From: Pseudochelatococcus lubricantis
GTDB taxonomy: Bacteria; Pseudomonadota; Alphaproteobacteria; Rhizobiales; Beijerinckiaceae
DNA length: 64,000 nucleotides
NCBI RefSeq assembly: GCF_011762225.1
Contig: NZ_JAASQI010000010.1
Span: 124,001-188,000, forward strand
Direction: 5' to 3'
The notes under the pieces were generated by a model. It saw only the letters and a list, made by a program, of their open reading frames with translations. It was not told the origin of the DNA and did no database searches. The position numbers and the translations under genes are program-made. Of the stretch, positions 12,848 through 56,434 are shown piece by piece (position 1 is the first letter of the stretch; each line of letters begins with the position of its first letter).

Positions 12848-12850
12848 CCG

Positions 12851-16772: not shown

Positions 16773-17735
16773 ATGACGACAAGTATTTTTTCCGGCTGCA
16801 TGCCCGCGTTGATGACGCCGTGCAAGGAAGACCGCAGCCCCGATTTCGACACGCTGGTTCGGGACGGGCAGGAACTTATCTCGGCGGGTATGTCCGCCGT
16901 GATCTATTGCGGTTCCATGGGCGACTGGCCCCTCCTGACCGACCAGCAGCGCATGGAAGGGGTAGAACGTCTGGTGAAAGCGGGCGTGCCGGTCGTTGTC
17001 GGCACCGGCGCGGTCAACACGGCTTCCGCCGTGGCCCATGCCGCCCATGCGCAGCAAGTTGGCGCGAAGGGCCTGATGGTCATTCCCCGCGTGCTTTCCC
17101 GCGGTTCGTCAGCGGCCGCGCAGCGCAACCATTTCAAGGCGATCCTGTCGGCGGCGCCGTCCATCCCGGCCGTCATCTACAACAGCCCCTACTACGGCTT
17201 CGCGACCCGCGCCGAGCTGTTCTTCGCCCTGCGGGCCGAGCATCCGAACCTCGTCGGCTTCAAGGAATTCGGCGGCCGGGAAGCGCTGACCTACGCGGCC
17301 GAACACATCACGAGCCAGGGCGACGGGGTGACGCTGATGGTGGGCGTGGACACGGCGGTGGTCCACGGCATCGTCAATTGCGGCGCCGCGGGCACGATCA
17401 CCGGCATAGGCAATGTGCTGCCGCGCGAGGTCCTGCACCTTTGCGCGCTGTCCCACGCGGCCGCCAATGGCGATGTGGACGCGCGGGTGCGGGCTAAGGA
17501 ACTCGAACAGGCGCTGGCCGTTCTTTCATCCTTCGACGAAGGCGCGGACCTTGTCCTCTTTTACAAGCACCTGATGGTCCTGAAGGGCAAGCGGGAGTAC
17601 ACTCTCCATTTCAACGCGAGCGATGAGCTTTCGGCAAGCCAGCGCGGCTTTGCCGAAGCGCAACTGAAGTTGTTCGAGAGCTGGTATGCTGGGTGGAGCA
17701 GGCAAACCGGCGCCGTCGAGAAATATCGCGCGTGA
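16773..17735 (+). CDS. Dihydrodipicolinate synthase/N-acetylneuraminate lyase family protein
   Basis: A 320-residue DapA-family TIM barrel. The Schiff-base lysine is Lys164 in GFKEFGG and the partner tyrosine is Tyr136 in YNSPYYG. The usual GTTGE loop is changed to CGSMGDW (46-52), which indicates a substrate other than that of DapA. In hydroxyproline pathways a family member (HypD/LhpC) deaminates pyrroline-4-hydroxy-2-carboxylate to 2-oxoglutarate semialdehyde, and that role fits here. The ATG at 16773 follows an ATAAGGAGA ribosome-binding site. The frame is open upstream but without family similarity. Confidence 0.87.
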   Translation: MTTSIFSGCMPALMTPCKEDRSPDFDTLVRDGQELISAGMSAVIYCGSMGDWPLLTDQQRMEGVERLVKAGVPVVVGTGAVNTASAVAHAAHAQQVGAKGLMVIPRVLSRGSSAAAQRNHFKAILSAAPSIPAVIYNSPYYGFATRAELFFALRAEHPNLVGFKEFGGREALTYAAEHITSQGDGVTLMVGVDTAVVHGIVNCGAAGTITGIGNVLPREVLHLCALSHAAANGDVDARVRAKELEQALAVLSSFDEGADLVLFYKHLMVLKGKREYTLHFNASDELSASQRGFAEAQLKLFESWYAGWSRQTGAVEKYRA

Positions 17736-17856
17736 GAAACGTCGCCTCTGATTAAGAACCCCCGAGTAAAAAGGAGCGGTGGCATCAGATTTTCTGTTCG
17801 CCGCTCCATCGTGGCAGTTGCACGTTCATGAACGAGCGCGCGCCGTCGCCAGCGGT

Positions 17857-18693
17857 TCAGGAAGGCTCGGCGGTATTCCGGAAGGAGGCGGCAGGCGGGA
17901 TCACGCCGTTCTCGCCCGCCCAGGCGATCACGCGGGCGGCGACCTCCTTCCCCTTCTGCTCGTAGATCAGGAGATGGCAAAGGCCCTCGGCCAGATCGTA
18001 ATCCGTGCGTGCCGGCGCCAGTTTCTGCCATAGCCACGCGCTGTACACCAGGGCCGGAGCCACCAGCCTGTCCTCGCTGGCGGCTATCAGAAGAAGCGGC
18101 GCCTGCCGGGCCGGCGGCCAGAGGAAGGTACCGAGACCCACCGCCGCCTCGCCGTAGATTCGTCCTGGGCTCGGCACGAGGCGGTCATAGATCTCCCTGC
18201 GTGTGTCGGGCGGCAGGGTGTTGGCGACGCGCGTATCGAACACGTCGCGCGCGACGTCATAGGTCTGGCTCCAGCCCCGCCAACCCGCCCCCACGAGCAA
18301 CGCCGATCCGAAGGAAACGGGGTCGGGCCAGAGCCCGGCGAAGGGCGCGGGTGAAAGCACCGCCCCGGCCGCGCCGAGACCGCGCGCCAGCAACAACTGG
18401 ACGACAAGCCCGCCGAAGGAATGGCCGACCAGCAGCGGTGGTGTGTCGAGCCCCGCGACAATTTGCGCGTAATGCTCGGTGATCTCACCCACCGAGAGTG
18501 CGCCAAGCTGCGGGTCAGGTGCAGCGCGCAGTTCCGCCTCCGACTTGTCCAACCCGGGCCAGGCCGGCGCAAGCGTTTGAAAACCCGCGTCCTCGAACGG
18601 GCGGCGGAACGCATCCCAGCAGGACGGCGTGACCCATGCCCCGTGAATAAAGACAACCGCAGGTTGCTTCAGGCTCTCATTAAGATGCTGCAT
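17857..18693 (-). CDS. Alpha/beta hydrolase
   Basis: A 278-residue alpha/beta-hydrolase-fold protein with oxyanion-region VFIHGAW near residue 14, nucleophile elbow VGHSFGG (Ser92), an acid in ASEDRLV and the histidine in GLCHLLIYE. No signal peptide is seen, so it is cytoplasmic. The open frame extends upstream, but similarity starts at MQHLNESLKQ (18693). The substrate is unknown. It converges on the DapA-like gene and shows no functional link to it. Confidence 0.85.
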   Translation of the reverse strand: MQHLNESLKQPAVVFIHGAWVTPSCWDAFRRPFEDAGFQTLAPAWPGLDKSEAELRAAPDPQLGALSVGEITEHYAQIVAGLDTPPLLVGHSFGGLVVQLLLARGLGAAGAVLSPAPFAGLWPDPVSFGSALLVGAGWRGWSQTYDVARDVFDTRVANTLPPDTRREIYDRLVPSPGRIYGEAAVGLGTFLWPPARQAPLLLIAASEDRLVAPALVYSAWLWQKLAPARTDYDLAEGLCHLLIYEQKGKEVAARVIAWAGENGVIPPAASFRNTAEPS

Positions 18694-18975
18694 CGCTTGA
18701 CGAACCGCCTCCGCCGTTCGGGCACGCCCATGCAGAATCCGTCCCATGGCGCCCTTCCGCTGCGGGAAGATTGCATCAACAAGATGCGGGGTCAAACGCC
18801 TTGTCGGCAGCACACACACTTTCCCGCGCTCTCGCCGTCCGCGGCCGCAGCCCGCGCCCCCCGCCGCCATCGTGCCGGCTTCTCATGCGGTCACCACATG
18901 GCGGACATGCCTGCGCCTCCCTTCCATTTTGCACTGCAACATCTTAAATACTGCAACAGCGAAGGAGGAATGAAA

Positions 18976-19176
18976 ATGGCAATACTTACGGCCCACCACG
19001 CAGACAGGCAGTGGCTTCAGGGCATCCTTGCCACGTTGTGGGAAGGCGTCAAGCTGTTCAGCGCGGCACGCGAATGCGCCGTGGCAGTCAATGCGCACCG
19101 CCGCCCGTCGTCTAAGGCGCTACAGACTCTCGGCATCGACGAAGCGGACTTCTGCGAGATACTCAAGCGTTCTTGA
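18976..19176 (+). CDS. Small DUF1127-like protein
   Basis: A 66-residue, amphipathic protein (MAILTAHHADRQWLQGIL...) ending in ALQTLGIDEADFCEILKRS. The C-terminal pattern of Leu-Gly-Ile-Asp followed by an acidic and aromatic tail resembles the DUF1127/YjiS-like small proteins abundant in alphaproteobacteria, some of which bind RNA or regulators. An AAGGAGG site fits the ATG at 18976 better than the ATG at 18970. Upstream are 9-bp direct repeats ACTGCAACA (18933 and 18950), and a hairpin follows the stop. The function is not known. Confidence 0.6.
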   Translation: MAILTAHHADRQWLQGILATLWEGVKLFSAARECAVAVNAHRRPSSKALQTLGIDEADFCEILKRS

Positions 19177-19195
19177 GACACCTCATATCGGCACG

Positions 19196-19215
19196 GACGG
19201 CTCGCGAGAGCCGTC
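19196..19215 (+). terminator. GNRA-capped hairpin after the DUF1127-like gene
   Basis: GACGGCTC and GAGCCGTC form a perfect 8-bp stem closed by a GCGA tetraloop, 19 bp after the stop codon. There is no T-tract. It is probably a transcript-end or stabilising hairpin. The rest of 19216-19436 shows no gene. Confidence 0.5.
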
Positions 19216-19436
19216 ACGCATAGGCGGCAATGGCGCCGTATGTATGCCTGGCCGGTATCTTAACCCGAGACGGGCAGTCTGACGGCTGCCTCGAAGCTGG
19301 ATTACTTGCCTAGCCGCCTTAAGCGCCAAACGGGCGCGCCGGCGATGGCCAGGCCGAGTCCGCTACCGTCAGCTTTCCGCCACCATGCTCGAAGCGGCTG
19401 GGCGAACAGCCCAGCATCCGAGGTGGCAAGGCAGGA

Positions 19437-19919
19437 TCAAGCCCCATCTACAGCCCGGTCGAGCGCGGCGATATCAATCTTCCTCATCGTCATCATGGCC
19501 GCCATGGCGCGTTTCGCGCGGGCGGCATCGGGATCCTTGACCAGCGCCATGAGGCGGCGGGGCACGATCTGCCAGGACAGTCCCCAACGGTCCTTGAGCC
19601 AGCCGCAGTCGCTTTCCCTGCCACCGTCGGCGATCAGGGCATACCAGAGGCGGTCGGTCTCGGTCTGATCGTCGGTCATGATCTGGAAGCTGACCGCCTC
19701 GGTGTGCGGAAACTGTGGGCCGCCGTTGAGGCCGAGATAGGAATGGCCGGCCAGAGTGAACTCCACGGTCAGCACCATGCCCGCAGGCCCGGACGGGGTG
19801 TCGACAGGGCTGCGCATGACCGCATCGATGCGGCTGTTGGGCAGCAGCGAGGTATAGAGGGTCGCAGCCTCCTCGGCGGCGCCGTCATACCAGATACAGG
19901 GAACGATCTTGTCGCTCAT
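19437..19919 (-). CDS. VOC family (PhnB-like) protein
   Basis: A 160-residue PhnB/3-demethylubiquinone methyltransferase-like glyoxalase-fold protein: KIVPCIWYDGAAEEAATLYTSLLPNSRI at the start, then GHSYLGLNGGPQFPHTEAVSFQI and DRWGLSWQIVPRRLMALV. The function of the family is poorly defined. The start at 19919 begins the domain and overlaps the stop of a 19-codon frame upstream (ATGA). Downstream end of a three-gene set (VOC, RibD-like, VOC) opposite a HxlR regulator. Confidence 0.85.
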   Translation of the reverse strand: MSDKIVPCIWYDGAAEEAATLYTSLLPNSRIDAVMRSPVDTPSGPAGMVLTVEFTLAGHSYLGLNGGPQFPHTEAVSFQIMTDDQTETDRLWYALIADGGRESDCGWLKDRWGLSWQIVPRRLMALVKDPDAARAKRAMAAMMTMRKIDIAALDRAVDGA

Positions 19920-42328: not shown

Positions 42329-43303
42329 TCATCGGCCGAACGCAGAACGCACGGCGAGGTTGAGCGCCTGGGGCAGCACCGACATATGGCTCTCGCCCGG
42401 CAGAAGCCGGAACGAGGCGTTGAAGCCGGGCACGGCCGCAAGCAGGGCCGCCATTTCACGCGCGTTGTCGACGATGCGGCTTTCCGCGAATCTTTTCAGG
42501 CGCTTGTCCGCATCGGGCGCCCCCTGTTGAAACGGCGCAAGCTGCTGTTCGTATTCGCCGGCCATCAGGAGCAGGCGGCCTGCGCGACCGGCGTTCGCGT
42601 CTGCGACGAAGCGCCGTGCCTCCCCGACGATGCCACCCCCTTCCCACCAGATGGCGGGACTTGCCGAAATCCACACGGAGAACGCCTCGGGCTTGCGGAA
42701 CAAGGCGTGGAGAACGAACAAACCGCCGAAGGAATGACCGAAGATCGCCTGCCTTGCCGGGTCGATGGTCACGCGCCGGCCGATCTCGGGTTTCAGGTCG
42801 TCCTCGACGAACGCCAGAAATGCGTCGGCCCCGCCGGTGCGCACAGGCGGACCGGCGGGCGTATGCGGCGGATAGGTGCGCCCCGGCGGCGGCCCCATAT
42901 CCCACGAGCGCCGTACGCTGTCGTACGCGCCCTCCGTCGGATAGCCTATGCCGACGACGACGCCATCGCCGATACCTGTCCCGAGCGGATAGGATGCCTG
43001 AACGCGCAGGATATCCGCCGCGGTGCCGATCACGGCATTCGCGTCCAGCACATAGAGCACAGGCCAGCCCTGTGCCGGCGCGGGGCTGGCCGGCACGCGC
43101 AGGAATATCCGGTAGGGCGCGCCGCCAGCGCGCGGCGGCAGGTCGAAGTAGACCGTATCGGGCACCGGCACTGCCTGCGCCGCCGGCGAGGCTTCCGCAA
43201 CCGTTATCGCGAGGAGAAAGGATGCCGCCACCGCGAGCAGAAATTTCACTGTTGCCGGCAGGAGCGATTCAGCGCGCTCCCCCATGTTGGCTGCCATTCC
43301 CAT
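42329..43303 (-). CDS. Exported alpha/beta hydrolase (siderophore esterase-like, IroE/Fes family)
   Basis: A 324-residue protein with an N-terminal signal or anchor (about residues 15-38, VKFLLAVAASFLLAITVAEA). The esterase-like fold shows PVLYVLDANAV, nucleophile elbow FGHSFGGLFVLHALF, FSVWISASPAIWWEGG and the final histidine in LLPGESHMSVLPQALN. This is the pattern of periplasmic IroE-type trilactone siderophore hydrolases. Placement after the FecA-like receptor supports a role in releasing iron from an ester siderophore. The ATG at 43303 follows GGAGGG; other in-frame ATGs lie at 43297 and 43285. Confidence 0.85.
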   Translation of the reverse strand: MGMAANMGERAESLLPATVKFLLAVAASFLLAITVAEASPAAQAVPVPDTVYFDLPPRAGGAPYRIFLRVPASPAPAQGWPVLYVLDANAVIGTAADILRVQASYPLGTGIGDGVVVGIGYPTEGAYDSVRRSWDMGPPPGRTYPPHTPAGPPVRTGGADAFLAFVEDDLKPEIGRRVTIDPARQAIFGHSFGGLFVLHALFRKPEAFSVWISASPAIWWEGGGIVGEARRFVADANAGRAGRLLLMAGEYEQQLAPFQQGAPDADKRLKRFAESRIVDNAREMAALLAAVPGFNASFRLLPGESHMSVLPQALNLAVRSAFGR

Positions 43304-43368
43304 CCATCCCTCCGAATGCCGTCGTGCGAAAAAGCGCCCTGCCGCGCGGAGCGGCAACACGGAAAACC

Positions 43369-45804
43369 TCACCACTTGTACTTGAGCGTGCCGAGCACTG
43401 TGCGGCCCTGGCCGAGATAGCAGGTGCCGGCATTGCAAATCTCGGCCCGCTTGTCGGTCAGGTTCGTGGCATTGACAGCAACGCTGAAGCCGGTGAGCCG
43501 ATCGTCGAGCCCGCCGAGATCGTAGCGGAGGGAAGCGTCAAGCAACGTGTAGGCGTCGTTGCGCATGGTATTGGTATTGTTGCCCCAGGTTTCGCCTATA
43601 TAGCGCACGCCTATGCCGCCGCCGAGCCCGGCCAGGGCACCCGACTGCACAGTATAGCTCAGCCAGAGCGAAGCGGCATGGCGCGGCGTCACCGCCGGCA
43701 CCTTGCCAATCTCGGCCGCCGTGTTGGAGCGGGTGATCTCGGCATCGACGAAGGTATAGGAGGCGATGGCCTCAAGTGAGTCCGTTATCTTTCCCCTGCC
43801 CTCGACCTCGATGCCCTGCGTCCGTATCCTGCCGATCGATTCATAATAGTATTGCCCGGTTGCCCCGTTGAATCCGGCATATTTGGCCGCGTTCTTTTCA
43901 ATGAGCTGATACGCCGACAACGTCAGGGACAGACGGCCATCCGCCGGCTGGTACTTGACGCCGGCTTCGAGCTGCTCGCCTTCGGACGGTTCCAGCACCC
44001 TGCCGTCGCGGTCGAGACTGCTCGTCGGCTGGAACGAGGTGCTGTAGCTGACGTAGGGGGCAATGCCGTTGTCGAAGAGGTAGAGCAGGCCCGCGTTGTA
44101 ACTGAAGGCGTCGTCGTTGCGCTTGCTGTTGACGCCGCCCGTCAGCAGGTTCGTCTGTGTCCTGTCCGTCCAGTCCTGCCTCCCGCCCAGCGACAGACGC
44201 CAGTTGCCGAGCCTGATCTGGTCCTGCGCATAGAGACCGACCTGATCGAAGTCCGTGTTCGTGCGGCTGGTGATTGCCGGCGTCGCACCGCTGAGCCCGT
44301 AGTAAGGATTGAGCACGTCCAGCGCAAATGCCGGATTGGCCGCACTCGTGCCGGTGTCGAACCGCGAGTTCATGTGGGCGTAGTCGAGGCCGAGGAGCAA
44401 CGTGTGCTGCAGCGATCCGGTGGCGAAATCGGCCTGTGCCTGATTGTCGACCTGGAAAGTCCGCAAGCGCTCGACGACGGCCGCGGTCCCGCGCCGGTAG
44501 ACCGACGAGGAGGCGTTCGCGAAGCCGCCCCCCGTGACGCCTCCGGTAAGATAGCGGCTGTCGAGATCCACGACTCCGAACCGCAAGTTCTGGCGCAGCG
44601 TCCAGACGTCATTGATGCGATGCGAGAGGTTGTAACCGATCTGGAACTGTTTCTGTTTCTGGTAATCGTAGTTCGGGTCGCTCGCGCGCAAACTGGATGT
44701 ACGGCTGTTCCGGTTGATCATCGCGACGTTGGAGTCCGTCTCGTCCTGCTGGGCGAGGCTGTAGACGGTCAGCGAACTGCCGTCCGTCGGCCGCCAGGTG
44801 AAGGAAGGCGCGAGCAGGAGCCGCCTGTCCTCGATATCGTAGTTGGTCTCGCCCGCGCGCCCCAGCGCCACGATGCGATAGAGAAACTTCCTGTCCGGAT
44901 CGACAGGCCCGCCGATATCGAAAGCACCCTGCAGGCGGCCATAGCTGCCGGCCTGTGCCTCGATCTCGTGATGGGCTTCCTCGGTGGGCAGCTTGGACTG
45001 TCGATCGATCAGCCCGCCCGGCGTGCCCTGACCGTAGAGCACGGAGACCGGCCCCTTGACGATGTCGATGCGATCGAGGCTGTAAGGCTCGGTCCGGAAA
45101 GTCGCATAGCCGCCGCTAATCTGGCGCAACCCGTCGCGATAGTCGCCCAGCGTCGTGGTCGCGAAGCCGCGGATGTAGATCTGGTCGAAGCGCGGATCAT
45201 AGCCGAAGGCGCCGGTGGTCACGCCCGACGTATAGCGCACCGCTTCCGGCACGCTCTGCACGCCGCGGTTGTCGAGTTCCTGGCGTGTGACGACCGATAT
45301 CGAGCGCGGCGTTTCGATCAGCGGTGTGTCGGTCTTGGTGCCGGCGCTGCTGCGCGTGGCGACATAACCGCGCGTGCCGTCGCCCCGGACGCCCGCCACC
45401 TCTATGGTGTCGAGCACGGTGGAACCGTCGTCGGCCAGGGCGGCGCCATTTTCCGACGATGCCGACGGGTCGAATATCTGGACCGTGCCGGCATTGCTGA
45501 ACCGGTATGTCAGGCCGGTACCGGCGAGCAGCATGGCGAGTGCCTGATCGGCGGTCAGCGATCCGCGCACAGCCCGGCCCATGGCCGCAATCGGCCGGTT
45601 TTCCCTGAATACCACGGAAAGACCTGCTACGCGGCCGATGTCGTTGACCGCCTGGGTAACGGGCTTGGCAGGGATGTTGAAATCGAACTGCCTCTGCGCT
45701 GCCCGCTGCTGCGCATGGACGGCCGTAACCGAAACGCCGGCGCTCGCGGCCAGCAACAGCGCCGCCAGCAGGAAGCTCTTCCGCCCCGCCCCGTTCCTTC
45801 TCAT
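43369..45804 (-). CDS. TonB-dependent siderophore receptor with N-terminal signalling (STN) domain
   Basis: An 811-residue outer-membrane receptor: signal peptide about 1-31, STN domain at about 40-95 (FDFNIPAKPVTQAVNDIGRVAGLSVVF...LTADQALAMLLAGTGLTYRF), plug (ETPRSISVVTRQELDNRG...DIVKGPVSVLYGQGTPGGLIDRQSK) and a 22-strand barrel ending in the aromatic residue W (LGTLKYKW). The STN domain would signal through the FecR protein encoded next upstream. The start at 45804 begins the signal peptide; an ATG at 45834 is possible. Substrate unknown, a ferric siderophore is likely. Confidence 0.94.
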   Translation of the reverse strand: MRRNGAGRKSFLLAALLLAASAGVSVTAVHAQQRAAQRQFDFNIPAKPVTQAVNDIGRVAGLSVVFRENRPIAAMGRAVRGSLTADQALAMLLAGTGLTYRFSNAGTVQIFDPSASSENGAALADDGSTVLDTIEVAGVRGDGTRGYVATRSSAGTKTDTPLIETPRSISVVTRQELDNRGVQSVPEAVRYTSGVTTGAFGYDPRFDQIYIRGFATTTLGDYRDGLRQISGGYATFRTEPYSLDRIDIVKGPVSVLYGQGTPGGLIDRQSKLPTEEAHHEIEAQAGSYGRLQGAFDIGGPVDPDRKFLYRIVALGRAGETNYDIEDRRLLLAPSFTWRPTDGSSLTVYSLAQQDETDSNVAMINRNSRTSSLRASDPNYDYQKQKQFQIGYNLSHRINDVWTLRQNLRFGVVDLDSRYLTGGVTGGGFANASSSVYRRGTAAVVERLRTFQVDNQAQADFATGSLQHTLLLGLDYAHMNSRFDTGTSAANPAFALDVLNPYYGLSGATPAITSRTNTDFDQVGLYAQDQIRLGNWRLSLGGRQDWTDRTQTNLLTGGVNSKRNDDAFSYNAGLLYLFDNGIAPYVSYSTSFQPTSSLDRDGRVLEPSEGEQLEAGVKYQPADGRLSLTLSAYQLIEKNAAKYAGFNGATGQYYYESIGRIRTQGIEVEGRGKITDSLEAIASYTFVDAEITRSNTAAEIGKVPAVTPRHAASLWLSYTVQSGALAGLGGGIGVRYIGETWGNNTNTMRNDAYTLLDASLRYDLGGLDDRLTGFSVAVNATNLTDKRAEICNAGTCYLGQGRTVLGTLKYKW

Positions 45805-45933
45805 CGATAGCAGCCCTTCTCGCTCGTGAAACATGCCGGGCGCGGGCAGCACATGAAGTGCGGTATTCCGTGCCTTTGTCTCCTTCACGTGCGAGAAGCC
45901 GCTTCACTGAACCGCGCGGCGCGATTTTTTTCG

Positions 45934-46926
45934 TTACGGTCCGATCACGGTGAGCCGGCCGGCTACCGTGTTCATGCGGAAACCGACGCTTGCCTGCAGT
46001 GAATTCAGCGCCGCATCCGTATCGGCGAGGGAAAGGCTCCCCGTCACAAGCTCCCCGGCGAGTTCCGTCGTGGCGATCACAATCCGCCCGCGGCGATAAC
46101 GTTCGATCTCGCGCACCACCTCGGCGAGGCGCGCGCGATAGAAGACGAGGCGGCCGTTGCGCCAGGCGAGCGCCTCCTCCAGATCGACGCGCGTGACCGG
46201 CCCAACCCCGGCCGGGCCGAAGCGAACCTGTTGGCCCGCCTCAAGAACGGCGTCGTCGGCAGCCCGGCCGCTCCTGACCGCGACGCGCCCGCGCTCCAGC
46301 GTCACGAGACCACCGTCGTCGAGCAGGTGCACGTCGAAGCGCGTGCCCAGCACCCGCACCTCCCCGCCGGACGCCGCGACCACAAACGGAACCGGCGACG
46401 ACACCACGTCGAAGAATGCCGCGCCCCGCATCAGCCGGACCCGGCGTTCCCCGTCGCGGTACTCTTCCGCGAGCGCGCTGTCCGCGTCTAGCAGCGCCGT
46501 CGATCCGTCCGGAAGGTTGACCAGCCGCCGCTCGCCGCGCTCGGTCTTGAAGTCCGCCAGCATATTCTGGAAAAGGCCGGGCCGTTCGAGCCATATTCCG
46601 CCCGCAAGCAGCAGGGCGAGCGCGAGGCAAAGGGCCGTGAGACGGCGTAACGTCCCGCGTTGCCCTTTCAGCCGATCCATGGCGTCGAGATAGACGGCGA
46701 GTTCGTCGGCCTCACGCGCGGCGAGCCGCTCCCCCGGTTTCCCGGTTGCGCGCCAGACGGCCTCAACCTTGCGGAACGCCTCGTCGTGGGCCGCATCGGC
46801 TTTCCGCCAGCGCTCGAACCGCTCGCGCTGGGCGTCCGTCGGCGAATCGAGCAGGCGCACGAGCCATTGCCGCGCTTCCTTGCGAACATCCGTCTCGGTC
46901 GGCTCTGTGGGGTCCTGACTGCTCAT
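45934..46926 (-). CDS. FecR family anti-sigma/signal transducer
   Basis: A 330-residue inner-membrane protein: N-terminal DUF4880 (ARQWLVRLLDSPTDAQRERFERWRKADAAHDEAF), one membrane helix at about 95-113 (LTALCLALALLLAGGIWL), FecR periplasmic domain (GERRLVNLPDGSTALLDADSAL...GEVRVLGTRFDVHLL) and a C-terminal DUF4974 (ALAWRNGRLVFYRARLAEVVREIERYRRGRI) that contacts the receptor STN domain. It controls the sigma factor encoded just upstream. Start at MSSQDPTEPTE, 46926. Confidence 0.93.
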   Translation of the reverse strand: MSSQDPTEPTETDVRKEARQWLVRLLDSPTDAQRERFERWRKADAAHDEAFRKVEAVWRATGKPGERLAAREADELAVYLDAMDRLKGQRGTLRRLTALCLALALLLAGGIWLERPGLFQNMLADFKTERGERRLVNLPDGSTALLDADSALAEEYRDGERRVRLMRGAAFFDVVSSPVPFVVAASGGEVRVLGTRFDVHLLDDGGLVTLERGRVAVRSGRAADDAVLEAGQQVRFGPAGVGPVTRVDLEEALAWRNGRLVFYRARLAEVVREIERYRRGRIVIATTELAGELVTGSLSLADTDAALNSLQASVGFRMNTVAGRLTVIGP

Positions 46927-46995
46927 GGGCCTGATAAACGGATTCCGTTTCAATACACGCGCAGGCGCATCATCCGCCGGATCGCAGGCAGGCTC

Positions 46996-47508
46996 CTACC
47001 CGGTATCGCCGGCCGGGATGCTTTCGCACGCCGCCACGGCACGCGCCATATGCTTCGCCACGGCCCGCTCGGAGATGCCGAACACGGACGCTATCTCGGC
47101 GAAGCTCCTACCATGGATCCTGTTCAGGAGAAAGATATGCCGCGTGCGCTTCGGAAGCGCCGCGAGCGCCTCATCGACGTTACGGATGTCCTGCCGCGCC
47201 GCGACAATGTCGAAGGGCGATGCCGACGGCGCGGCATACTGCTCAGGCGCGAGCGCACCGAAGAAGGCGTGCCGGGTCTTTTCCGCGCGGATGTGATCGA
47301 TGGCGGCATTGCGCGCGCAGCGCGTCAGGAACGCGGATGAATTGCCCGTGCAATCGACGGCCTTCTCCCAGATGCGGAGAAAGATGTCCTGCACGAGATC
47401 GCACGCGGTCGCCGTGCAGCCGATCTTCCGGCAAATCTGACGTTCGAGCCTCGCGCGCTCGTCAGCGTACAGGCGTTTGATTTCGTCGCTTCTGGCTGTC
47501 ATCAACAT
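46996..47508 (-). CDS. ECF sigma factor (FecI-like)
   Basis: A 170-residue ECF sigma factor. Region 2 is DLVQDIFLRIWEKAVDCTGNSSAFLTRCARNAAIDHIRAEKTR and region 4 is ALAALPKRTRHIFLLNRIHGRSFAEIASVFGISERAVAKHMARAV, both typical of FecI. It would transcribe the receptor and esterase genes when the ferric siderophore is bound. Starts at 47508 or 47502 are equally plausible; neither has a strong ribosome-binding site. Confidence 0.9.
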   Translation of the reverse strand: MLMTARSDEIKRLYADERARLERQICRKIGCTATACDLVQDIFLRIWEKAVDCTGNSSAFLTRCARNAAIDHIRAEKTRHAFFGALAPEQYAAPSASPFDIVAARQDIRNVDEALAALPKRTRHIFLLNRIHGRSFAEIASVFGISERAVAKHMARAVAACESIPAGDTG

Positions 47509-47600
47509 GCTGCAGGGAAATGCCGCCCGCGTTGAACGGCAGGCGCGCAATGGCACCGGCGCAGACTAGTGAATACGAAAACATCTTTCAATCGCAATTA

Positions 47601-47691: not shown

Positions 47692-48516
47692 ATGCAATAT
47701 CGTCTCCATGCCGAGTCGGTGACGCTGCGGTACGGCGAGCGGACGATTTCGGCGAATCTCGACGTCGCGATTCCGGACGGCTCCTTCACGGTGATCGTCG
47801 GCCCGAACGCTTGCGGCAAGTCTACCCTGCTGCGGGCGTTGTCGCGGCTGCTGGCGCCTGCGGCGGGAAAGGTGGTGCTGGACGGCAGGAATGTCGCCGA
47901 CTTCCCCGCCCGCGCTTTCGCCCGCCGGGTCGGCCTTCTGCCGCAGAGTTCCGTCGCCCCGGACGGCATCACCGTGGCCGACCTCGTGGCGCGTGGCCGC
48001 TATCCGCATCAGTCGTTCCTGCGGCAATGGTCGACAGCCGACGACAGGGCCGTTGTCGCGGCGATGGAGGCGACCCGGGTTTCCGGGCTGTCGGACCGGC
48101 TCGTGGACGAGCTGTCCGGCGGCCAGCGCCAGCGGGTCTGGATCGCGATGGTGCTGGCCCAGGAAACGCCGATCCTGCTGCTCGACGAGCCGACCACGTT
48201 CCTCGACATCGCCCACCAGATAGAGCTTCTCGACCTGTTGTCCGACCTCAACGGCGAGGGCCGCACGGTGGTCGCGGTCCTCCACGATCTCAACCAGGCG
48301 TGCCGCTACGCCACCCGTCTCATCGCCATGCGGGACGGCGCGATCGTGGCCGAGGGCGCCCCCTCGGACATCGTCACCGAACAGCTTGTCGAGCGTGTCT
48401 TCGATCTGCCGTGCGTCGTCGTTCCCGATCCCGTCTCCCTGACACCGCTCGTCGTGCCGATAGGAAGAGCGACGGCACGCATTCGCCAGACCGGAACAGA
48501 AAGGCGGCCGGCATGA
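47692..48516 (+). CDS. Iron-siderophore ABC transporter ATP-binding protein (FepC/FecE-like)
   Basis: A 274-residue ATPase: Walker A GPNACGKST (37-45), Q-loop in LLPQSSVAPDGITVADLVARGRYPHQ, which is the FecE/FepC-specific stretch, signature LSGGQRQR, Walker B ILLLDEPTTFLDIAHQ and the LHDLNQA H-loop. It should power the two FecCD permeases encoded 6-8 kb downstream; no other ATPase for them is visible. It overlaps the flavin monooxygenase gene as ATGA, so the two are co-translated. Confidence 0.93.
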   Translation: MQYRLHAESVTLRYGERTISANLDVAIPDGSFTVIVGPNACGKSTLLRALSRLLAPAAGKVVLDGRNVADFPARAFARRVGLLPQSSVAPDGITVADLVARGRYPHQSFLRQWSTADDRAVVAAMEATRVSGLSDRLVDELSGGQRQRVWIAMVLAQETPILLLDEPTTFLDIAHQIELLDLLSDLNGEGRTVVAVLHDLNQACRYATRLIAMRDGAIVAEGAPSDIVTEQLVERVFDLPCVVVPDPVSLTPLVVPIGRATARIRQTGTERRPA

Positions 48517-49793
48517 CGGTGGCCGGACAGCTTCACATTGGACTATGCCTTTCCGAAACGTGGCTGCTCGGCAGGGGCCCTGACGCCGCCGAGGGGCAAG
48601 CGCAAGTACGTGACCCCGCCGGCTTCTACGCCGGACTGGCGCGAGCTGCGGAAAAGGCGAAGCTGGACTTCGTCTTCAAACCGGATACGCTCGTGATACG
48701 CTCCGGCATCGCGGCGGCGACGCCGGCCATCGTGGGCCTCGACGTGACCGTCATGCTCGCGTCGATCGCGCGGGAGACCGACAGGATCGGCCTGGTCACG
48801 ACCGCCTCGACCACCTTTAACCCGCCCTACGTCGTGGCCCGCCAGATTCAGTCCCTGCACTGGATCAGCAACGGGCGAGCGGGATGGAACATCGTCACGT
48901 CCATCGAGGGCGCGGAAAATTTCGGCGATACGCCGATGCCGCCGACAGATGTCCGCTATCGCAAGGCACGGGAATTCACCGACGTTGTCCGGCGGCTCTG
49001 GCAAAGCTACCCCCTCGCCGCGCCGGCCGGCGCGGCGAACATCGCGCCTGTCGGCCACAGGGGGGAGTTCTTCAGCGTGGCAGGTCCGCTCAATGTGCCG
49101 GCCCATCCGGCCGGGCCGCCGCCGCTGTTCCAGGCAGGCGCTTCCGACATCGGGCGGGAATTCGCGGCGTCGGTGGCGGATGCCACGTTCGCGTCAACGC
49201 CCGACATGGGGGCCGCGATCGAACTGCGCGCCGATCTCCGCAGCCGCGCGGCGCGGCACGGACGGTCGCCGGACGCCGTCCGCGTGCTGCCGGGCCTGTA
49301 CTTCTTCCTCGCCGCAACCCGGGAGGAGGCATGGGAGATGCACAGGCGGGCGCATGCGCATCTGACACGCCGGCATCGCTGCGATGCTGTGAAATCCATC
49401 CTTGGGCTCGACATCGGCCACCTGCCGGCCGACGGTCGGGTGACGCCCGATATGCTCCCGGCGAGCGGCCTGCCCGTTCGCAGCCGCACCCATGCCGATC
49501 TGCTGCGCCGCTTCATCGCGCTCAACAATCCAACGGTGGAGGAATTGTTGTCGCGGCCCGAGGTCGTCGGCTCGGCCCATTGGGTTTCTGTCGGCACCGT
49601 GGATGACGTGCTGGGCGACATCATCGAGTGGCACGCGGCCGGCGCGATTGACGGCTTCATCGCCCTCCCGGGCGGCTCGCTGGAATCGCTCGCGCTGTTC
49701 CTAGACGAACTGGTGCCAGCCCTTGCGGAGCGGGGATTGTTCCGCAAGGACTACGAGGGCTCCACGCTGCGCGGACATCTGGGCATGGGCTGA
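48513..49793 (+). CDS. LLM-class FMN-dependent monooxygenase (NtaA/SnaA/DszA family)
   Basis: A 426-residue flavin-dependent monooxygenase of the bacterial-luciferase-like NtaA/SnaA/DszA group: LGLCLSETWLL-like start, DFVFKPDTL, LVTTASTTFNPPYVVARQIQSLHWISNGRAGWNIVTS (the family signature), FSVAGPLNVP and PPLFQAGASDIGREFAASVADATF. Family members cleave C-N or C-S bonds with FMNH2 and O2, including metal chelators (NTA, EDTA), dibenzothiophene sulfone and pristinamycin. Co-translation with a siderophore ATPase gene suggests that it attacks the imported ligand. No flavin reductase gene is adjacent. Confidence 0.88.
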   Translation: MTVAGQLHIGLCLSETWLLGRGPDAAEGQAQVRDPAGFYAGLARAAEKAKLDFVFKPDTLVIRSGIAAATPAIVGLDVTVMLASIARETDRIGLVTTASTTFNPPYVVARQIQSLHWISNGRAGWNIVTSIEGAENFGDTPMPPTDVRYRKAREFTDVVRRLWQSYPLAAPAGAANIAPVGHRGEFFSVAGPLNVPAHPAGPPPLFQAGASDIGREFAASVADATFASTPDMGAAIELRADLRSRAARHGRSPDAVRVLPGLYFFLAATREEAWEMHRRAHAHLTRRHRCDAVKSILGLDIGHLPADGRVTPDMLPASGLPVRSRTHADLLRRFIALNNPTVEELLSRPEVVGSAHWVSVGTVDDVLGDIIEWHAAGAIDGFIALPGGSLESLALFLDELVPALAERGLFRKDYEGSTLRGHLGMG

Positions 49794-49838: not shown

Positions 49839-50618
49839 TCAGCCGCCACCTCCCGCATCCAGCGTCGCCTGCTTCCCCGCCTCGAAAAGGGCCGCGCGGT
49901 GGCCTTCCGCCTCGGCCGTCTTCACGAAGGAGACAGTCGTGACGACGCAGGCGATTTCGTTCTGTACATTGAAGACGGGAGCCGCCTTGCCAGTCAGGGC
50001 CGAGAACAGGTGTTCGTTCAATTCCGCGCCGCCGGCTCGGCGGACGGCTTCCAGCGCGTCGGGCTTCGGCGTCTGCCCCCTGAAGGACGCAGGCTGCATT
50101 TTGCGTGCGGCCGAGATGGCTTTGGGAGGCAGATGGGCCTGAAAAACCAGCCCGCAGGCGGTGTTGTCGAGGGGCAGCACATCGCCGAGGCTGACCGTGC
50201 TGATCGAAAAATCCGTGCTGCGGTACCAGCGCACAACCGTGGGGCCGCGTTCGGTCCACACCGCGACGCCGCAACTGGCCGCGATGCGGGAAGCGAGGGA
50301 TTGCATCAGCCTGGCGGCCACCTCCACCGGCTCGATGCGCCGCATCGCGCGGATTCCGATGCTGAGCGAGGCCGGGCCGAGGTCGTATCGCCCCGTCGCC
50401 TCGTCCTGCGCCACCAGCCGCTCCCGAACGAGGCTCTGCATATAGCGGTGCGCCGTGGAAGGGCCGGTCTGAGCCTGCCGGGCAAGCTCGTTGAGGGCCA
50501 TAGCCCCCTCCGCCTTCGCCAGTATTTCAAGGAAACGCGCCGCAATCGACACGGACTGGATGGTCCCGGAACGCTTGTCCCGGTCGCGTTCCTTGCTGCC
50601 GGGTTGATTCGGCTTCAC
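49839..50618 (-). CDS. IclR-family transcriptional regulator
   Basis: A 259-residue regulator: N-terminal helix-turn-helix at about 18-78 (SVSIAARFLEILAKAEGAMALNELARQAQTGPSTAHRYMQSLVRERLVAQD) and the IclR effector domain from about 90 (RIAASCGVAVWTERGPTVVRWYRS, LPLDNTACGLVFQAHLP). It lies between the monooxygenase and the second TonB receptor on the opposite strand. IclR proteins usually sense catabolic substrates, which fits a monooxygenase better than iron itself. It is divergent from the receptor over a 675-bp gap. Confidence 0.92.
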   Translation of the reverse strand: MKPNQPGSKERDRDKRSGTIQSVSIAARFLEILAKAEGAMALNELARQAQTGPSTAHRYMQSLVRERLVAQDEATGRYDLGPASLSIGIRAMRRIEPVEVAARLMQSLASRIAASCGVAVWTERGPTVVRWYRSTDFSISTVSLGDVLPLDNTACGLVFQAHLPPKAISAARKMQPASFRGQTPKPDALEAVRRAGGAELNEHLFSALTGKAAPVFNVQNEIACVVTTVSFVKTAEAEGHRAALFEAGKQATLDAGGGG

Positions 50619-51293: not shown

Positions 51294-53372
51294 ATGGGAT
51301 TGAATTCTTTCGCGCGATATCTGCTCGGCAGCGCGAGCATCGCGGCGCTGGCGCTCCTCGCAGCGCCGGCCCTTGCACAGGAGAACGACGCGGGCGCCGT
51401 TCTCGAACTGCCGGAAATCACCGTCAGCGGCGAAAAAATCGAGCGCAGCCTGCAAAGGACCGCCAGTTCGGTCACTGTGCTGACGGCGAAGGACATCGCG
51501 CGCAAGGTGGGGGCGACTTCGGTCACGGAAGCGATCCAGGGCGTGCCGAACGTGGTCTTTCCGGATTCGGTCAGCGCGCCGGTTATCCGCGGCCAGGATA
51601 CGCAAGGGCCCAACTCCGGCGCGGGCGCCTTCTTCGCCGGCACGGTGCCGCGCGCGCCCGTCAACGTCGATGGGCACTACCTGAACTTCAACGAGTTCTA
51701 TTTCGGCACGACATCGGTCTGGGACGTCAGAAGCATCGAGGTATTCCGCGGCCCGCAGACGACGTCGCAGGGCGCGAACGCGACTGCTGGCGCGATCATC
51801 GTCAACACCAACGATCCGACCTTTACGCCGGAGGCAGCCTATCAGACAGAGTTCGGCAGCTACGACACGAAGCGGGCCTCGTTCATGCTCTCGGGTCCCC
51901 TCGTCAAGGATGAACTGGCGGCGCGCATCGCGCTCGACTATTCCGGCCGCGATACGTTCATCGACTACATCAATCCGGGCTTCGTACCCGGCGATACCAA
52001 TCTTGACTTCCAGAACGTCAATGCCCGCCTCAAGCTGCTCTGGCAGCCCACCACGATCCCGGGCCTCGAAGCGAAATTCACCTATTCGTACAATTCAAGC
52101 AACCGGCCGACTCAGGAGGCGGCCACCCGGCCGTTCAGTGACCTCAACAGCAACGCGGCGACGATGCCGACGTGGAAGCAGGACACCAACATCGGGATCC
52201 TCGACGTCAGCTACGACTTCTCCAACGGATTCAAGTTCTTCAATCAGACGCAATATAGCAACTCGACCGTGCACCGCGTAGCCAATGTTCGCGGCAATGG
52301 CGATGCGGATATCGACCAGTGGAATGCCTCCAACGAGGCGCGGATCACCTACGGCAGCACCGATGATGTTCTGAGCGGTATGGCGGGATTCTACTACGCG
52401 CACACGCAATCCGACGAGAATCTGTATGTCGGCGGCACCTCGACCTTCGATGACACCAAGCGGAATCTCGGCATCTTCGGTGAGCTGACCTACAAGCTGA
52501 CCGACAAATGGCGGCTCACCGGCGGGCTGAGGTATCAGCAGGATCAGGTCGAGCGTCTGGGAACGACAGTCTATAGCCGCATACCCCTTGATTTCGACAA
52601 GACGTTTTCGGCGCTTCTGCCCAAGGTCTCGCTGTCCTACGATGTGACGCCGGACTGGACCGTCGGCGCGCTCGTCAGCCGCGGCTATAATCCCGGCGGC
52701 GTCGCGCTGAACCTCAGCTCGGGGCGCTGGCTGACCTTCAAGGACGAGTCGCTCTGGAACTACGAGCTGTTCACGCGCACGAGCATCCTCGATGGCAGGC
52801 TGAACCTGAACGGCAACCTGTTCTACACGGATTTCAAGAATGCGCAGTACAATATCCCCGTCGTCATTTCGCCGGGCGTCTTTGAATCGTACACCATCAA
52901 CGCCGAGAAGGCTCATTCCTACGGCCTTGAGGTCGGGTTCGACTACCGGGTTCTCGACAGCCTGACGCTCAGGGCGGGCGCTGGCCTGCTCAGCACCGAA
53001 ATCGAGGAAGTGTCGAGCAATCCTGACTACGCGGGCAACGAGTTCCCGAAGGCGCCCGGCTACATGTTTAGCCTCGGCGCGAGCTGGGATGTCACTGACA
53101 AGTTCAACGTGTCCGCCGATCTCCGCCACACGGGCGGCTCTTACTCCAACGTCGCCAACTCGGCCGAATACAAGGTCAAGTCCTATACGATCGCCAATGC
53201 CCAGGCGAGTTATCAGGTCCATGAGCACTTGCAGGTCTACGGCTATGTCCGAAACGTTTTCGACGAGCGGGCACCGACATACCTTCAGCAGAACCGCAGC
53301 GTGACGGGCGGCATCGAAGCGAGCATGACCATGCCGCGCACCTTCGGTGTCGGCGTCAAGGGTGCATTCTGA
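51294..53372 (+). CDS. TonB-dependent receptor (no signalling domain)
   Basis: A 692-residue outer-membrane receptor: signal peptide about 1-28 (ending APALAQE), TonB-box-like LPEITVSGEKIE, plug (VTVLTAKDIARKVGATSVTEAIQGVPNVVF...SIEVFRGPQTTSQGANATAGAIIVNTNDPT) and a barrel ending in Phe (GVGVKGAF). It lacks an STN domain, so it is not wired to the FecIR pair. It is followed 1 bp later by the binding-protein gene, so its ligand should be the one transported by the ABC system. Confidence 0.94.
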   Translation: MGLNSFARYLLGSASIAALALLAAPALAQENDAGAVLELPEITVSGEKIERSLQRTASSVTVLTAKDIARKVGATSVTEAIQGVPNVVFPDSVSAPVIRGQDTQGPNSGAGAFFAGTVPRAPVNVDGHYLNFNEFYFGTTSVWDVRSIEVFRGPQTTSQGANATAGAIIVNTNDPTFTPEAAYQTEFGSYDTKRASFMLSGPLVKDELAARIALDYSGRDTFIDYINPGFVPGDTNLDFQNVNARLKLLWQPTTIPGLEAKFTYSYNSSNRPTQEAATRPFSDLNSNAATMPTWKQDTNIGILDVSYDFSNGFKFFNQTQYSNSTVHRVANVRGNGDADIDQWNASNEARITYGSTDDVLSGMAGFYYAHTQSDENLYVGGTSTFDDTKRNLGIFGELTYKLTDKWRLTGGLRYQQDQVERLGTTVYSRIPLDFDKTFSALLPKVSLSYDVTPDWTVGALVSRGYNPGGVALNLSSGRWLTFKDESLWNYELFTRTSILDGRLNLNGNLFYTDFKNAQYNIPVVISPGVFESYTINAEKAHSYGLEVGFDYRVLDSLTLRAGAGLLSTEIEEVSSNPDYAGNEFPKAPGYMFSLGASWDVTDKFNVSADLRHTGGSYSNVANSAEYKVKSYTIANAQASYQVHEHLQVYGYVRNVFDERAPTYLQQNRSVTGGIEASMTMPRTFGVGVKGAF

Positions 53373-53373
53373 G

Positions 53374-54357
53374 ATGCGTGACAACCGGACAGATGCGCTC
53401 CGCCGCGCCCTTCTGGCCGTGACAGCGGCCCTGGCGCTCCACCTGCCCGCGCCCGCCGCTCCTGCGCAGGAAACCGGCTGGCCGCGGACGATCAAGCACG
53501 CAGCGGGCGAAATCACGCTTGCGGCAAAGCCCGCGCGGATCGTCTCGACCTCGCCAAGTCTCACCGGCATTCTGCTCGCCATCGATGTTCCGATCGTTGC
53601 GACCGCAGCCACCACGCCCAGCGGCCTGACGGACGGGAAAGGCTACTTTTCCCAATGGGCCGAGGTGGCTGACGCGCGCGGCGTCGCGGTTCTATACTCC
53701 AACCTGAATTTCGATATCGAATCCGTGATAGGCTGGAACCCCGATCTGCTGATCGTCTCGGCCGGAGGCGCCGACACCGCCCTTCAACACTATCCGGAGC
53801 TTCGGGCGCAGGGTATCCCGACTATCGTCGTCAATTATTTCAATCGACCCTGGCAGGAAATCGCAACCGAAATCGGCCGGGCCACGGGGCATGAGGCAGA
53901 GGCAGCGGCGGCCATCAGGCGTTTCGACGACTATGCCGCCGGGGTCGCCCCATCCATAACCCCGCCGGCTGGTCCGGTCACCATCGTCGGATACAATCTC
54001 GCCGGCACTTACTCGGTCAGCCGCGCCACCAGTCCCCATGCGCAAATTCTCAAGGCGCTCGGCTTCGAGGTGGCGGGCCTGCCAGAGCACATCCGGGCGG
54101 ATCCGGCATACAGAGGCTCTGACTTCGGGTTCGTCTCCCGCGAGACCCTGTCGTCCGCCATCGCCGGCGAAACCGTCTTCCTGCTGAACGGCACGGAGAA
54201 GGACGTCGAGACGTTTCTCGCCGATCCGGTCCTCGCCAATCTGCCCGCCGTCAGGAACCGGCGCGTCTACCCGCTGGGGCCGACCTCCTTCCGCGTCGAC
54301 TATTACTCCGGGCGCCAGCTCATCGACACCGTCGCCGGCTATTTCCGCAAGTCATGA
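53374..54357 (+). CDS. Iron-siderophore periplasmic binding protein (FepB/FecB-like)
   Basis: A 327-residue binding protein: signal peptide about 1-38, then a class III fold: GEITLAAKPARIVSTSPSLTGILLAIDVPIVATAATTPSG, NPDLLIVSAGGADTALQHYPELRAQGIPTIVVNY and VRNRRVYPLGPTSFRVDYYSGRQLIDTV. This type carries ferric siderophores or chelates. It lacks a lipobox. Start at 53374; the frame is open 27 bp further into the receptor gene. Confidence 0.93.
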   Translation: MRDNRTDALRRALLAVTAALALHLPAPAAPAQETGWPRTIKHAAGEITLAAKPARIVSTSPSLTGILLAIDVPIVATAATTPSGLTDGKGYFSQWAEVADARGVAVLYSNLNFDIESVIGWNPDLLIVSAGGADTALQHYPELRAQGIPTIVVNYFNRPWQEIATEIGRATGHEAEAAAAIRRFDDYAAGVAPSITPPAGPVTIVGYNLAGTYSVSRATSPHAQILKALGFEVAGLPEHIRADPAYRGSDFGFVSRETLSSAIAGETVFLLNGTEKDVETFLADPVLANLPAVRNRRVYPLGPTSFRVDYYSGRQLIDTVAGYFRKS

Positions 54358-55400
54358 CGGTCCGTGCGGGAGGAATCGCCGAGGCCCCACTGTCGCACCG
54401 GCGCCGGAAGCGCCTGCGGGTACTTGCCGGGGGGCTCCTGCTGCTCGGCCTCGCCGCCTTTTGCAGCCTGATCGTCGGCTCGCGGCCCATTCCGCTGGGC
54501 GCGACGTTCGATGCGCTCGTCGCCTACGACATCCATGACGACCGGCATCTGGTGATACGGGAACTGCGCGTCCCCCGCACCATCGTCGCCCTGCTTGCCG
54601 GCGCGGCTCTGGGTGCCGCGGGGGCGATCATGCAGGCGGCGACGCGCAATCCGCTTGCGGAACCGGGCCTGCTCGGCATCAATGCCGGGGCAGCGGTCGC
54701 CGTGGTCATCGGGATCGCGGCCTTCGATCTGACGTCGATGACGCAATACGTCTGGTTCGGCATAGCTGGTGCGGGTTTCGCCGGCATCGCCGTCTTCGTT
54801 CTCGGCCGTGCGCACGAGACGGGCACCAACCCGGTGCGCCTCGTGCTGGCCGGCGCCGGTCTGTCGATCATGCTGACGGCGATCACGGGGATCGTCATCA
54901 TCAACGCGCCGCTGGCGGTTTTCGACGATTTCCGGAAATGGTCGGCGGGGTCGATAGAAGGAAGAGGGTTCGATGTCGTCGGCGTGCTCGCCGTCGCGGT
55001 CCCGGCAGGACTGGCGACGGCCTTCGCCATCTCGGGGCGCCTCAACGCCGTGGCGCTGGGCATGGACCTTGGCCGGGCGCTCGGGGTGAACGTCCGCACC
55101 ACATGGTTTCTCGCATGCGTGTCGATCATGCTGCTGACAGGCGCAGCGACCGCGGGCGCGGGGCCGATCGGGTTTGTCGGTCTGGTCGCGCCGCACCTCG
55201 CGCGGATGACGACAGGTCCGGATTTCCGGTGGATACTGCCCTGTTCAGCGCTCTTCGCAGCCGTGCTGCTGCTAGGCGCCGACATCCTCGGCCGGGTCAT
55301 CGCCGCACCCTCGGAGGTCGCGGCCGGGATCATCGCCGCCCTGATCGGCGGCCCTTTCCTGATCGCCGTGGTGCGTAGATCCCGCCTGACGAAACTATGA
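54354..55400 (+). CDS. Iron-siderophore ABC transporter permease (FecC/FepD-like)
   Basis: A 348-residue FecCD-family permease with about nine hydrophobic helices: LVIRELRVPRTIVALLAGAALGAAGAIMQAATRNPLAEPGLLGINAGAA is the family hallmark, and ARALGVN-like LGRALGVNVR with GPIGFVGLVAPHLARMTTG marks the ATPase-contact loop. It overlaps the binding-protein gene and the next permease gene as ATGA. Confidence 0.94.
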   Translation: MTVRAGGIAEAPLSHRRRKRLRVLAGGLLLLGLAAFCSLIVGSRPIPLGATFDALVAYDIHDDRHLVIRELRVPRTIVALLAGAALGAAGAIMQAATRNPLAEPGLLGINAGAAVAVVIGIAAFDLTSMTQYVWFGIAGAGFAGIAVFVLGRAHETGTNPVRLVLAGAGLSIMLTAITGIVIINAPLAVFDDFRKWSAGSIEGRGFDVVGVLAVAVPAGLATAFAISGRLNAVALGMDLGRALGVNVRTTWFLACVSIMLLTGAATAGAGPIGFVGLVAPHLARMTTGPDFRWILPCSALFAAVLLLGADILGRVIAAPSEVAAGIIAALIGGPFLIAVVRRSRLTKL

Positions 55401-56434
55401 AATCCGCCCTCCCCTCCGTTCTTCGGCTCGGGTCGCTCTCTGTCTTGTGGAGACCGCGCGCGGCCCTCGTCTGCGGCCTGCTCGCGCTTGCCGGTGCAGC
55501 GCTGGGCATCCTGCTTATGGGAACGGGAACACTGCCCCTCACGCCCGGAGAAGTTCTCTCCAGCCTCCTCGGCACGGGGGAAAACCCGACGGCGGACCGC
55601 ATCGTGCTGCGAATCCGGCTGCCGCGCGTGGCGACGGCGATGCTCGTCGGCGCGGCGCTGGGCATGGCCGGCTCCATCTTCCAGTCCATTTCCCGCAACG
55701 CGCTCGGCTCTCCGGACATCATCGGCTTCACGACCGGGGCTGCGACGGGCGCCATCGTGCAGATCATCCTCTTCAATGCCGGCCCGTTCGAAACCGCGCT
55801 GGCGGCGGCGCTTTCGGGCATGGGCACGGCGGGAGTCGTCTTCCTGCTCTCGATGCAGGGGCGCTCCACGGGCGGCTACCGTCTCGTGCTGGTCGGCATC
55901 GGCGTGGGCGCGATCATGTCCGGCGTCAATACCGTCCTCCTCGTCATGGGCGACCTCGACCGGGCCTCCGCCGCGCAGATCTGGCTCTCCGGTTCCCTCA
56001 ACACGCGCACGTGGTTCCACGTCGTGCCTGCCGCCGTGGGCCTTGCAGTCGTTATGCCGGTCGCCATCCTGCACGCTCGACGCATCGACCTGCTGGAAAT
56101 GGGCGACGACGCAGCGAGCCAGCTCGGCGTCAATGTGGAGCGAACGCGGCTCGTCATGGTCATGACCGCCGTCGGCCTGACAGCGCTTGCCACGGCCGCC
56201 ACCGGCCCGATCGCGTTCATCGCACTCGCCGGCCCGCAGCTCGCCCGCCGTCTGACGCGCTCGCCCGGCGTGCCGCTGGTGTCCGGCGCGTGCATGGGCG
56301 CTGTCCTTCTCCTCGCCGCCGATCTACTGAGCCAGCGATTTCCCTTCAACGTCAGCCTGCCGATCGGGCTGACGACCGGCCTTCTGGGTGGCTTCTACCT
56401 CCTGCTGCTGCTCACCCGCAGCCCGAAGGTCTGA
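55397..56434 (+). CDS. Iron-siderophore ABC transporter permease (FecD/FepG-like)
   Basis: A 345-residue FecCD-family permease: IVLRIRLPRVATAMLVGAALGMAGSIFQSISRNALGSPDIIGFTTGAATGA, GDDAASQLGVNVERTRLV and TGPIAFIALAGPQLARRLTRSPG. It forms the heterodimeric channel with the preceding permease. A strong hairpin follows 4 bp after the stop, so this is the last gene of the operon. Confidence 0.94.
   Translation: MKSALPSVLRLGSLSVLWRPRAALVCGLLALAGAALGILLMGTGTLPLTPGEVLSSLLGTGENPTADRIVLRIRLPRVATAMLVGAALGMAGSIFQSISRNALGSPDIIGFTTGAATGAIVQIILFNAGPFETALAAALSGMGTAGVVFLLSMQGRSTGGYRLVLVGIGVGAIMSGVNTVLLVMGDLDRASAAQIWLSGSLNTRTWFHVVPAAVGLAVVMPVAILHARRIDLLEMGDDAASQLGVNVERTRLVMVMTAVGLTALATAATGPIAFIALAGPQLARRLTRSPGVPLVSGACMGAVLLLAADLLSQRFPFNVSLPIGLTTGLLGGFYLLLLLTRSPKV

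Follow-up and report, generated by a model that had tools for sequence, protein, structure and literature searches.

Several described systems resemble parts of the locus examined here, which lies in a stretch of 64,000 nucleotides from Pseudochelatococcus lubricantis (hereafter the window). Enterobactin uptake by FepABCDG-Fes has in common with it a receptor, FepB, FepC, FepD and FepG; the window cassette differs in having, instead of a Fes-type esterase, genes for a flavin monooxygenase (LLM) and an IclR-family regulator. Uptake genes of catecholate type are likewise shared with the vibriobactin and fluvibactin systems (ViuPDGC-ViuB and VfuPDGC), and Vibrio furnissii has an LLM gene between its vfuP-like and vfbH-like genes. 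The catabolism of EDTA and NTA, which combines EmoA with chelate transport, follows the same principle, in that a metal chelate is taken up and its ligand oxidised, whereas the window locus has TonB and FecCD siderophore transport, no linked flavin reductase in the window, and an enzyme on a branch apart from NTA monooxygenase. That enzyme shares its fold, family-model score and dioxygen pocket with the NtaA/DmoA family (TIGR03860: NTA monooxygenase, EmoA, YtnJ/CmoJ, DszA/BdsA, LadA, DmoA, RcaE and HcbA1), and differs from it by a branch of its own and the motif RPExxxSxHW. A distant point of comparison is RutA, which carries out the oxygenolytic amide cleavage of uracil. RutA, DszA and HcbA1 operate through flavin-N5 oxygen species, and RutA uses them for amide cleavage (PMC7662398).

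The analysis below presents LLM as a conserved enzyme, apparently undescribed, of what is most likely catecholate siderophore uptake; the open-access literature yielded no account of an LLM monooxygenase that takes part in importing siderophores.

Organisation of the locus

The cassette comprises seven genes:

47692..48516, + strand: fepC-type ABC ATPase for ferric siderophores, leading the fepC-LLM unit (Pfam ABC_tran; of the NCBIfam models NF007606 FepC fits best, at 372 bits, short of the cut-off of 497)
48513..49793, + strand: LLM, FMN-dependent monooxygenase of the siderophore-linked NtaA/DmoA clade (TIGR03860 above cut-off, tree, alignments, signature, structure model, Foldseek)
49839..50618, - strand: IclR-family regulator, convergent with LLM (Pfam HTH_IclR and IclR_C)
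51294..53372, + strand: TonB-dependent receptor for siderophores, leading the receptor-fepBDG unit (Plug and barrel domains in Pfam; TIGR01783 at 214 bits, just under the cut-off of 223.5)
53347..54357, + strand: fepB-type periplasmic ferric-enterobactin binding protein (NF008200 enterobactin-SBP, 391 bits against a cut-off of 205)
54354..55400, + strand: fepD-type FecCD permease (Pfam FecCD, 285 bits; 4-base overlap with fepB)
55397..56434, + strand: fepG-type FecCD permease (Pfam FecCD, 260 bits; 4-base overlap with fepD)

The LLM reading frame encodes 426 amino acids, free of internal stops. A preliminary description of the window had reported that it overlaps fepC by ATGA, and the coordinates and sequence bear this out, the four bases being common to the fepC stop (48514-48516) and the LLM start (ATG at 48513). 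The same 4-base overlap is found in two Shinella plasmids and in Methylorubrum. Pfam and NCBIfam profiles likewise confirm the IclR, TonB receptor, FepB and two FecCD genes that had been named as its neighbours, such that siderophore-type receptor, SBP, permeases and ATPase are all present. The arrangement is more than chance because the same combination recurs in unrelated genomes. Neither the reading frames nor a profile search revealed an esterase, Fes-type or other, between 47692 and 56434. Base composition gives no sign of foreign origin.

Upstream of the cassette, at 42329-47556 on the - strand, lies a divergent FecI-FecR-FoxA-like receptor operon whose last gene encodes a PF00756 esterase; such an enzyme is unusual beside a receptor of hydroxamate type. 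Its score against the enterochelin esterase model is low (25 vs 222 bits).

A separate branch of the NtaA/DmoA family

The LLM protein scores 327.4 bits against the TIGR03860 NtaA/DmoA model (curated cut-off 279.7), the match covering residues 36-422 and thus nearly the full length, and it also exceeds the Pfam Bac_luciferase cut-off. Its predicted structure (pLDDT 89) has a TIM-barrel fold with Foldseek TM scores of 0.74-0.85 to YtnJ, BdsA, NTA monooxygenase and EmoA, while identity to solved family members is approximately 23-32%. A maximum-likelihood tree was built from 72 proteins, comprising 49 siderophore-linked rows and 23 others (among them solved members and own-genome paralogs, with EmoA 5dqp left out). 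The 49 rows form a single branch with 100/100 support and a stem of 0.91, which lies outside NTA monooxygenase, YtnJ, DszA, LadA, DmoA, RcaE, HcbA1 and all own-genome paralogs used; none of the eight solved members included falls within it. The signature RPExxxSxHW (amino acids 348-357 in the window LLM) occurs in 48/49 clade rows and in 0/23 of the others; for a second motif, DG[FV]xxxPGGS, the counts are 41/49 and 0/23.

The window genome encodes 15 weaker relatives of LLM, at most 42% identical to it. About a dozen further NtaA-type monooxygenases, none near siderophore genes, were noted at loci L115-L125 of this genome, two of them in tandem at L117 (8410-11172).

In a gap-free alignment, T97 and N126 of LLM correspond to RutA chain positions 86 and 115, that is, to Thr105 and Asn134. 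These RutA residues hold dioxygen next to flavin N5. Both residues are invariant in the LLM clade; they are also invariant in the own-genome paralogs, and therefore mark an oxygenase fold and not amide cleavage. RutA is itself distant, with 19% identity in the fold match and its Trp139 position occupied by I131 in LLM. The invariant pocket speaks against a very improbable reading in which LLM oxygenates nothing and supplies FMNH2 for reduction of the ferric siderophore, as might be imagined from the reduced flavin bound throughout the family and from the TrxB-like flavoprotein that neighbours LLM in many Paenibacillus loci.

Distribution and gene neighbourhood

Close relatives of LLM, defined by an E value of at most 1e-90, are rare and scattered. 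They were found in 2/385 genomes across the class and 3/298 in the family (the window genome is in both counts), in 4/198 Vibrionaceae, in 20/201 Paenibacillaceae and in 8/298 genomes of the family of Paracoccus. Named carriers are Shinella, Sinorhizobium, Pannonibacter, Paracoccus, Roseibium, Rhizobium, Nitratireductor, Methylorubrum, Vibrio furnissii and Paenibacillus. Paenibacillus rows are both basal to and among the proteobacterial rows of the tree, and many copies are on plasmids, which together point to horizontal transfer of the gene.

In 46/49 other clade loci from Alphaproteobacteria, Vibrionaceae and Paenibacillaceae, a gene for a siderophore SBP, a FecCD permease or a TonB protein is found no more than 6 kb from LLM, a count that includes one locus (G876) split between two pieces. 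The three exceptions are Paenibacillus loci with only an AraC gene beside LLM. Since the loci were picked by enzyme similarity and not by context, the count is not circular, and among 12 own-genome NtaA paralogs none has a siderophore ABC or TonB neighbour. The preliminary description would have been contradicted had its neighbours not stayed together in relatives; the neighbourhood is instead kept across phyla. Its gene order varies: fepC-LLM, receptor-LLM, LLM divergent from the ABC operon, receptor-SBP-LLM in Vibrionaceae and AraC-LLM-(TrxB-like)-SBP in Paenibacillus, where LLM is paired with an SBP and an AraC regulator. An association that recurs in varied gene orders and in more than one phylum speaks for a functional link between LLM and siderophore genes rather than one frozen accident.

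A TrxB-like flavoprotein, a possible electron donor, is encoded beside or near LLM in several Paenibacillus loci (for L015, 11350-12396; for L104, 5232-6434).

These data also bear on the idea that LLM is a sulfonate or sulfone monooxygenase for sulfur scavenging that stands here by chance. Most characterised relatives do act on sulfur compounds, and own-genome paralogs lie near generic ABC ATPases. However, the LLM clade is separate at 100/100 support, the siderophore context is specific and repeated, and a positional counterpart in Vibrio responds to iron (bipyridine-induced; see below). A kinship with sulfonate and sulfone enzymes, which the preliminary description had kept in view, did not emerge, as LLM is apart from DszA, DmoA and YtnJ in the tree; by tree placement and siderophore neighbourhood, a sulfur-supply enzyme of that group was ruled out, and the chance reading, strongly contradicted, is hardly credible.

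The likely ligand class

The V. furnissii LLM gene, flanked by genes for a FepB-like SBP and a VibH-like condensation protein, occupies the position of AL536_11460 in the fluvibactin cluster of V. fluvialis. Matched by position in V. furnissii and not by sequence, AL536_11460 would be the positional counterpart of LLM. This V. fluvialis gene between vfuP and vfbH is counted as an extra one with no assigned function, and belongs to a set of nine whose induction by 2,2'-bipyridine is 49- to 1755-fold (PMC13180887). Several other loci have a similar context. In Paracoccus sp. MA, LLM is situated between an iron ABC operon and an NRPS gene with condensation protein and AMP-binding genes. In Roseibium it adjoins a condensation protein, and relatives of the window receptor and IclR are encoded on the same plasmid beside dhbA, isochorismatase, DHB-AMP ligase and isochorismate synthase. 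In Rhodovulum, too, a relative of the window receptor is encoded next to DHB synthesis genes, and an NRPS/condensation cluster adjoins the cassette in a genome from the same family as the window organism (G644). The window genome itself has homologs of EntF (NRPS), EntE (DHB-AMP ligase), EntC (isochorismate synthase) and EntA (DHB dehydrogenase) at L127 (G000:C1:262001-281900), 10998-19595, and probably makes a dihydroxybenzoate siderophore. With relatives of LLM and of the receptor in DHB clusters, a FepB that exceeds the enterobactin-SBP cut-off, and EntF/E/C/A-type genes in the same genome, the gene context makes 2,3-dihydroxybenzoate catecholates, own or foreign, the most likely ligand class. 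The preliminary description had looked to an NTA- or EDTA-like chelate; this is not favoured, as LLM falls outside the branch of NTA monooxygenase 3sdo (in a tree without EmoA) and the context is that of 2,3-dihydroxybenzoate siderophores.

The Paracoccus sp. MA plasmid carries, at L025 (7628-23244), a receptor, an AMP-binding gene, the ABC operon, LLM, an NRPS, and condensation and carrier proteins, a candidate parabactin-type cluster. Parabactin is known from Paracoccus, and its biosynthetic cluster was unidentified in 2021 (PMC7962358).

The presence of LLM inside the synthesis clusters of V. furnissii, Paracoccus sp. MA and Roseibium, together with the EntF/EntE/EntC/EntA-type cluster elsewhere in the window genome, would fit a tailoring enzyme in the biosynthesis of a dihydroxybenzoate siderophore. 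We regard this as unlikely. Most LLM loci have transport genes and no siderophore synthesis gene nearby, the synthesis types differ (EntF-like in the window genome, VibF/VibH-like in others), and known fluvibactin synthesis is assigned to vfbABCDEFH (PMC13180887).

Co-inheritance with the IclR regulator

Distances between proteins were correlated over the 19 loci that hold all five genes, with permutation p-values that ignore shared ancestry. LLM distances follow those of IclR closely (r=0.91, or 0.89 without near-duplicates) and those of the other genes less so (TonB 0.61, SBP 0.45, ATPase 0.43), while SBP and ATPase follow each other (r=0.96). Stronger evidence of co-inheritance than these p-values is the difference between genes within one set of loci. 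There are two transporter types, with SBPs approximately 20% identical, and each occurs with either of two LLM/IclR lineages; therefore, transporters have been exchanged around the LLM-IclR pair. Moreover, IclR and LLM are confined to the same three genomes of approximately 297 in the family. The IclR gene, which the preliminary description had named beside the enzyme, is thus co-inherited with it, consistent with a regulator that senses something tied to the enzyme's reaction, probably the ligand or product of LLM. Regulators of the window branch are nearest to PcaR/PobR and BhcR models.

In relatives, TGCGGAAC-like repeats precede the receptor and sometimes fepC. Shared repeats of the TGCGGAAC/GTTCCGCA type were noted in the intergenic regions before the receptor at L020-L023, L027, L028, L047, L111 and L112, and before fepC at L021 and L027; they may be the IclR operator. 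An operator search of the window gave no clear TGCGGAAC-like repeat.

Cassettes without LLM

A genome of the same genus (G001) has the same transporter and receptor (TonB 81%, FepC 78%, FepB 65%) and neither LLM nor IclR; a YncE-like propeller gene is found between fepC and the receptor. The enzyme is therefore not needed for every such uptake cassette, and either LLM is an auxiliary enzyme that makes ligand use better or broader, or G001 takes up a different ligand.

In this G001-type locus (L144, 4413-13274) the propeller gene takes the place of LLM and IclR, and a signal-peptide-bearing CBAH-family amide hydrolase is encoded downstream of fepG. The hydrolase was considered as a functional replacement of LLM and is not counted as evidence, given its signal-peptide-like start and the roughly 370 bases that separate it from fepG; the one close relative on a plasmid, in Legionella, gave no support for replacement. 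Similarly set aside was an LLM-class gene of Bartonella sp. HY328 (L150, 12600-13625, - strand), which is near the same transporter and IclR and is not detectably similar to the window LLM.

Reductases and the fate of the ligand

SIP-type reductases are encoded in 9/28 Gram-negative LLM loci, and two more elsewhere in the window genome; the remaining 19/28 loci have no linked reductase within 6 kb. Of the two release routes named in the preliminary description, reductase-independent or combined, the first does not sit well with these reductases, and it is therefore more likely that the oxidative step is combined with reduction, or downstream of it, rather than replacing it.

The reductases would also fit an LLM that acts after iron release, clearing or salvaging the iron-free 2,3-dihydroxybenzoyl amides that remain once a reductase or esterase has acted, as detoxification or catabolism. 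The likeness of IclR to PcaR/PobR and BhcR models is in accord with this, since it points to an effector that is aromatic or organic. So too is the toxicity of imported bacillibactin monomers in Bacillus subtilis, where CatDE is required and further processing is unknown (PMC6212828). Against it, most loci have no ring-cleavage or other catabolic gene beside LLM, and most Gram-negative ones lack a linked reductase within 6 kb. On balance we consider it rather improbable, although the most plausible of the alternatives.

A possible oxidative route of iron release

To the reading that we prefer we give slightly better than an even chance: the locus would be a horizontally moved uptake cassette for 2,3-dihydroxybenzoate siderophores, in which LLM oxidises the imported siderophore in the cytoplasm. 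By their families, the receptor and FepBCDG would bring the ferric siderophore into the cytoplasm. There LLM, with FMNH2 from an unlinked flavin reductase and with O2, would oxidise the siderophore or its iron-free remnant, such that iron is released and not re-bound. The chemistry might be oxygenolytic cleavage of the 2,3-dihydroxybenzamide bond by a RutA-like flavin-N5-peroxide, a guess checked at the level of the dioxygen-pocket residues. Enterobactin, bacillibactin, parabactin and fluvibactin all contain the 2,3-dihydroxybenzamide bond, and oxygenolytic amide cleavage would therefore serve all of these organisms' siderophores.

The locus is best read as one in which the import of a ferric chelate is linked to an oxidation in the cytoplasm. 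In this respect the interpretation first put forward is supported, as are its conserved context and an enzyme clade apart from the sulfur enzymes; what finds no support is the NTA/EDTA ligand and the independence from reductases. The chelate analogy is thereby redirected from NTA and EDTA to catecholate siderophores. A broader proposal is more tentative, and we think it possible but doubtful: beside reduction and ester hydrolysis there may be a third route of iron release, O2-dependent cleavage of catechol amides by a dedicated flavin enzyme, spread horizontally between Gram-negative and Gram-positive bacteria with uptake genes and having its own IclR sensor in Gram-negatives.

Culturable Vibrio, Paracoccus, Shinella and Paenibacillus carry the LLM gene, whose role is readily testable. 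To our knowledge, ester hydrolysis, by which iron is freed from enterobactin and bacillibactin, is no route for amide-linked catecholates such as parabactin and fluvibactin. If the preferred reading is true, this gap would be filled by an oxidative enzyme that acts specifically on imported catecholates, and a function would be assigned to an iron-responsive, so far unassigned gene of the fluvibactin cluster.
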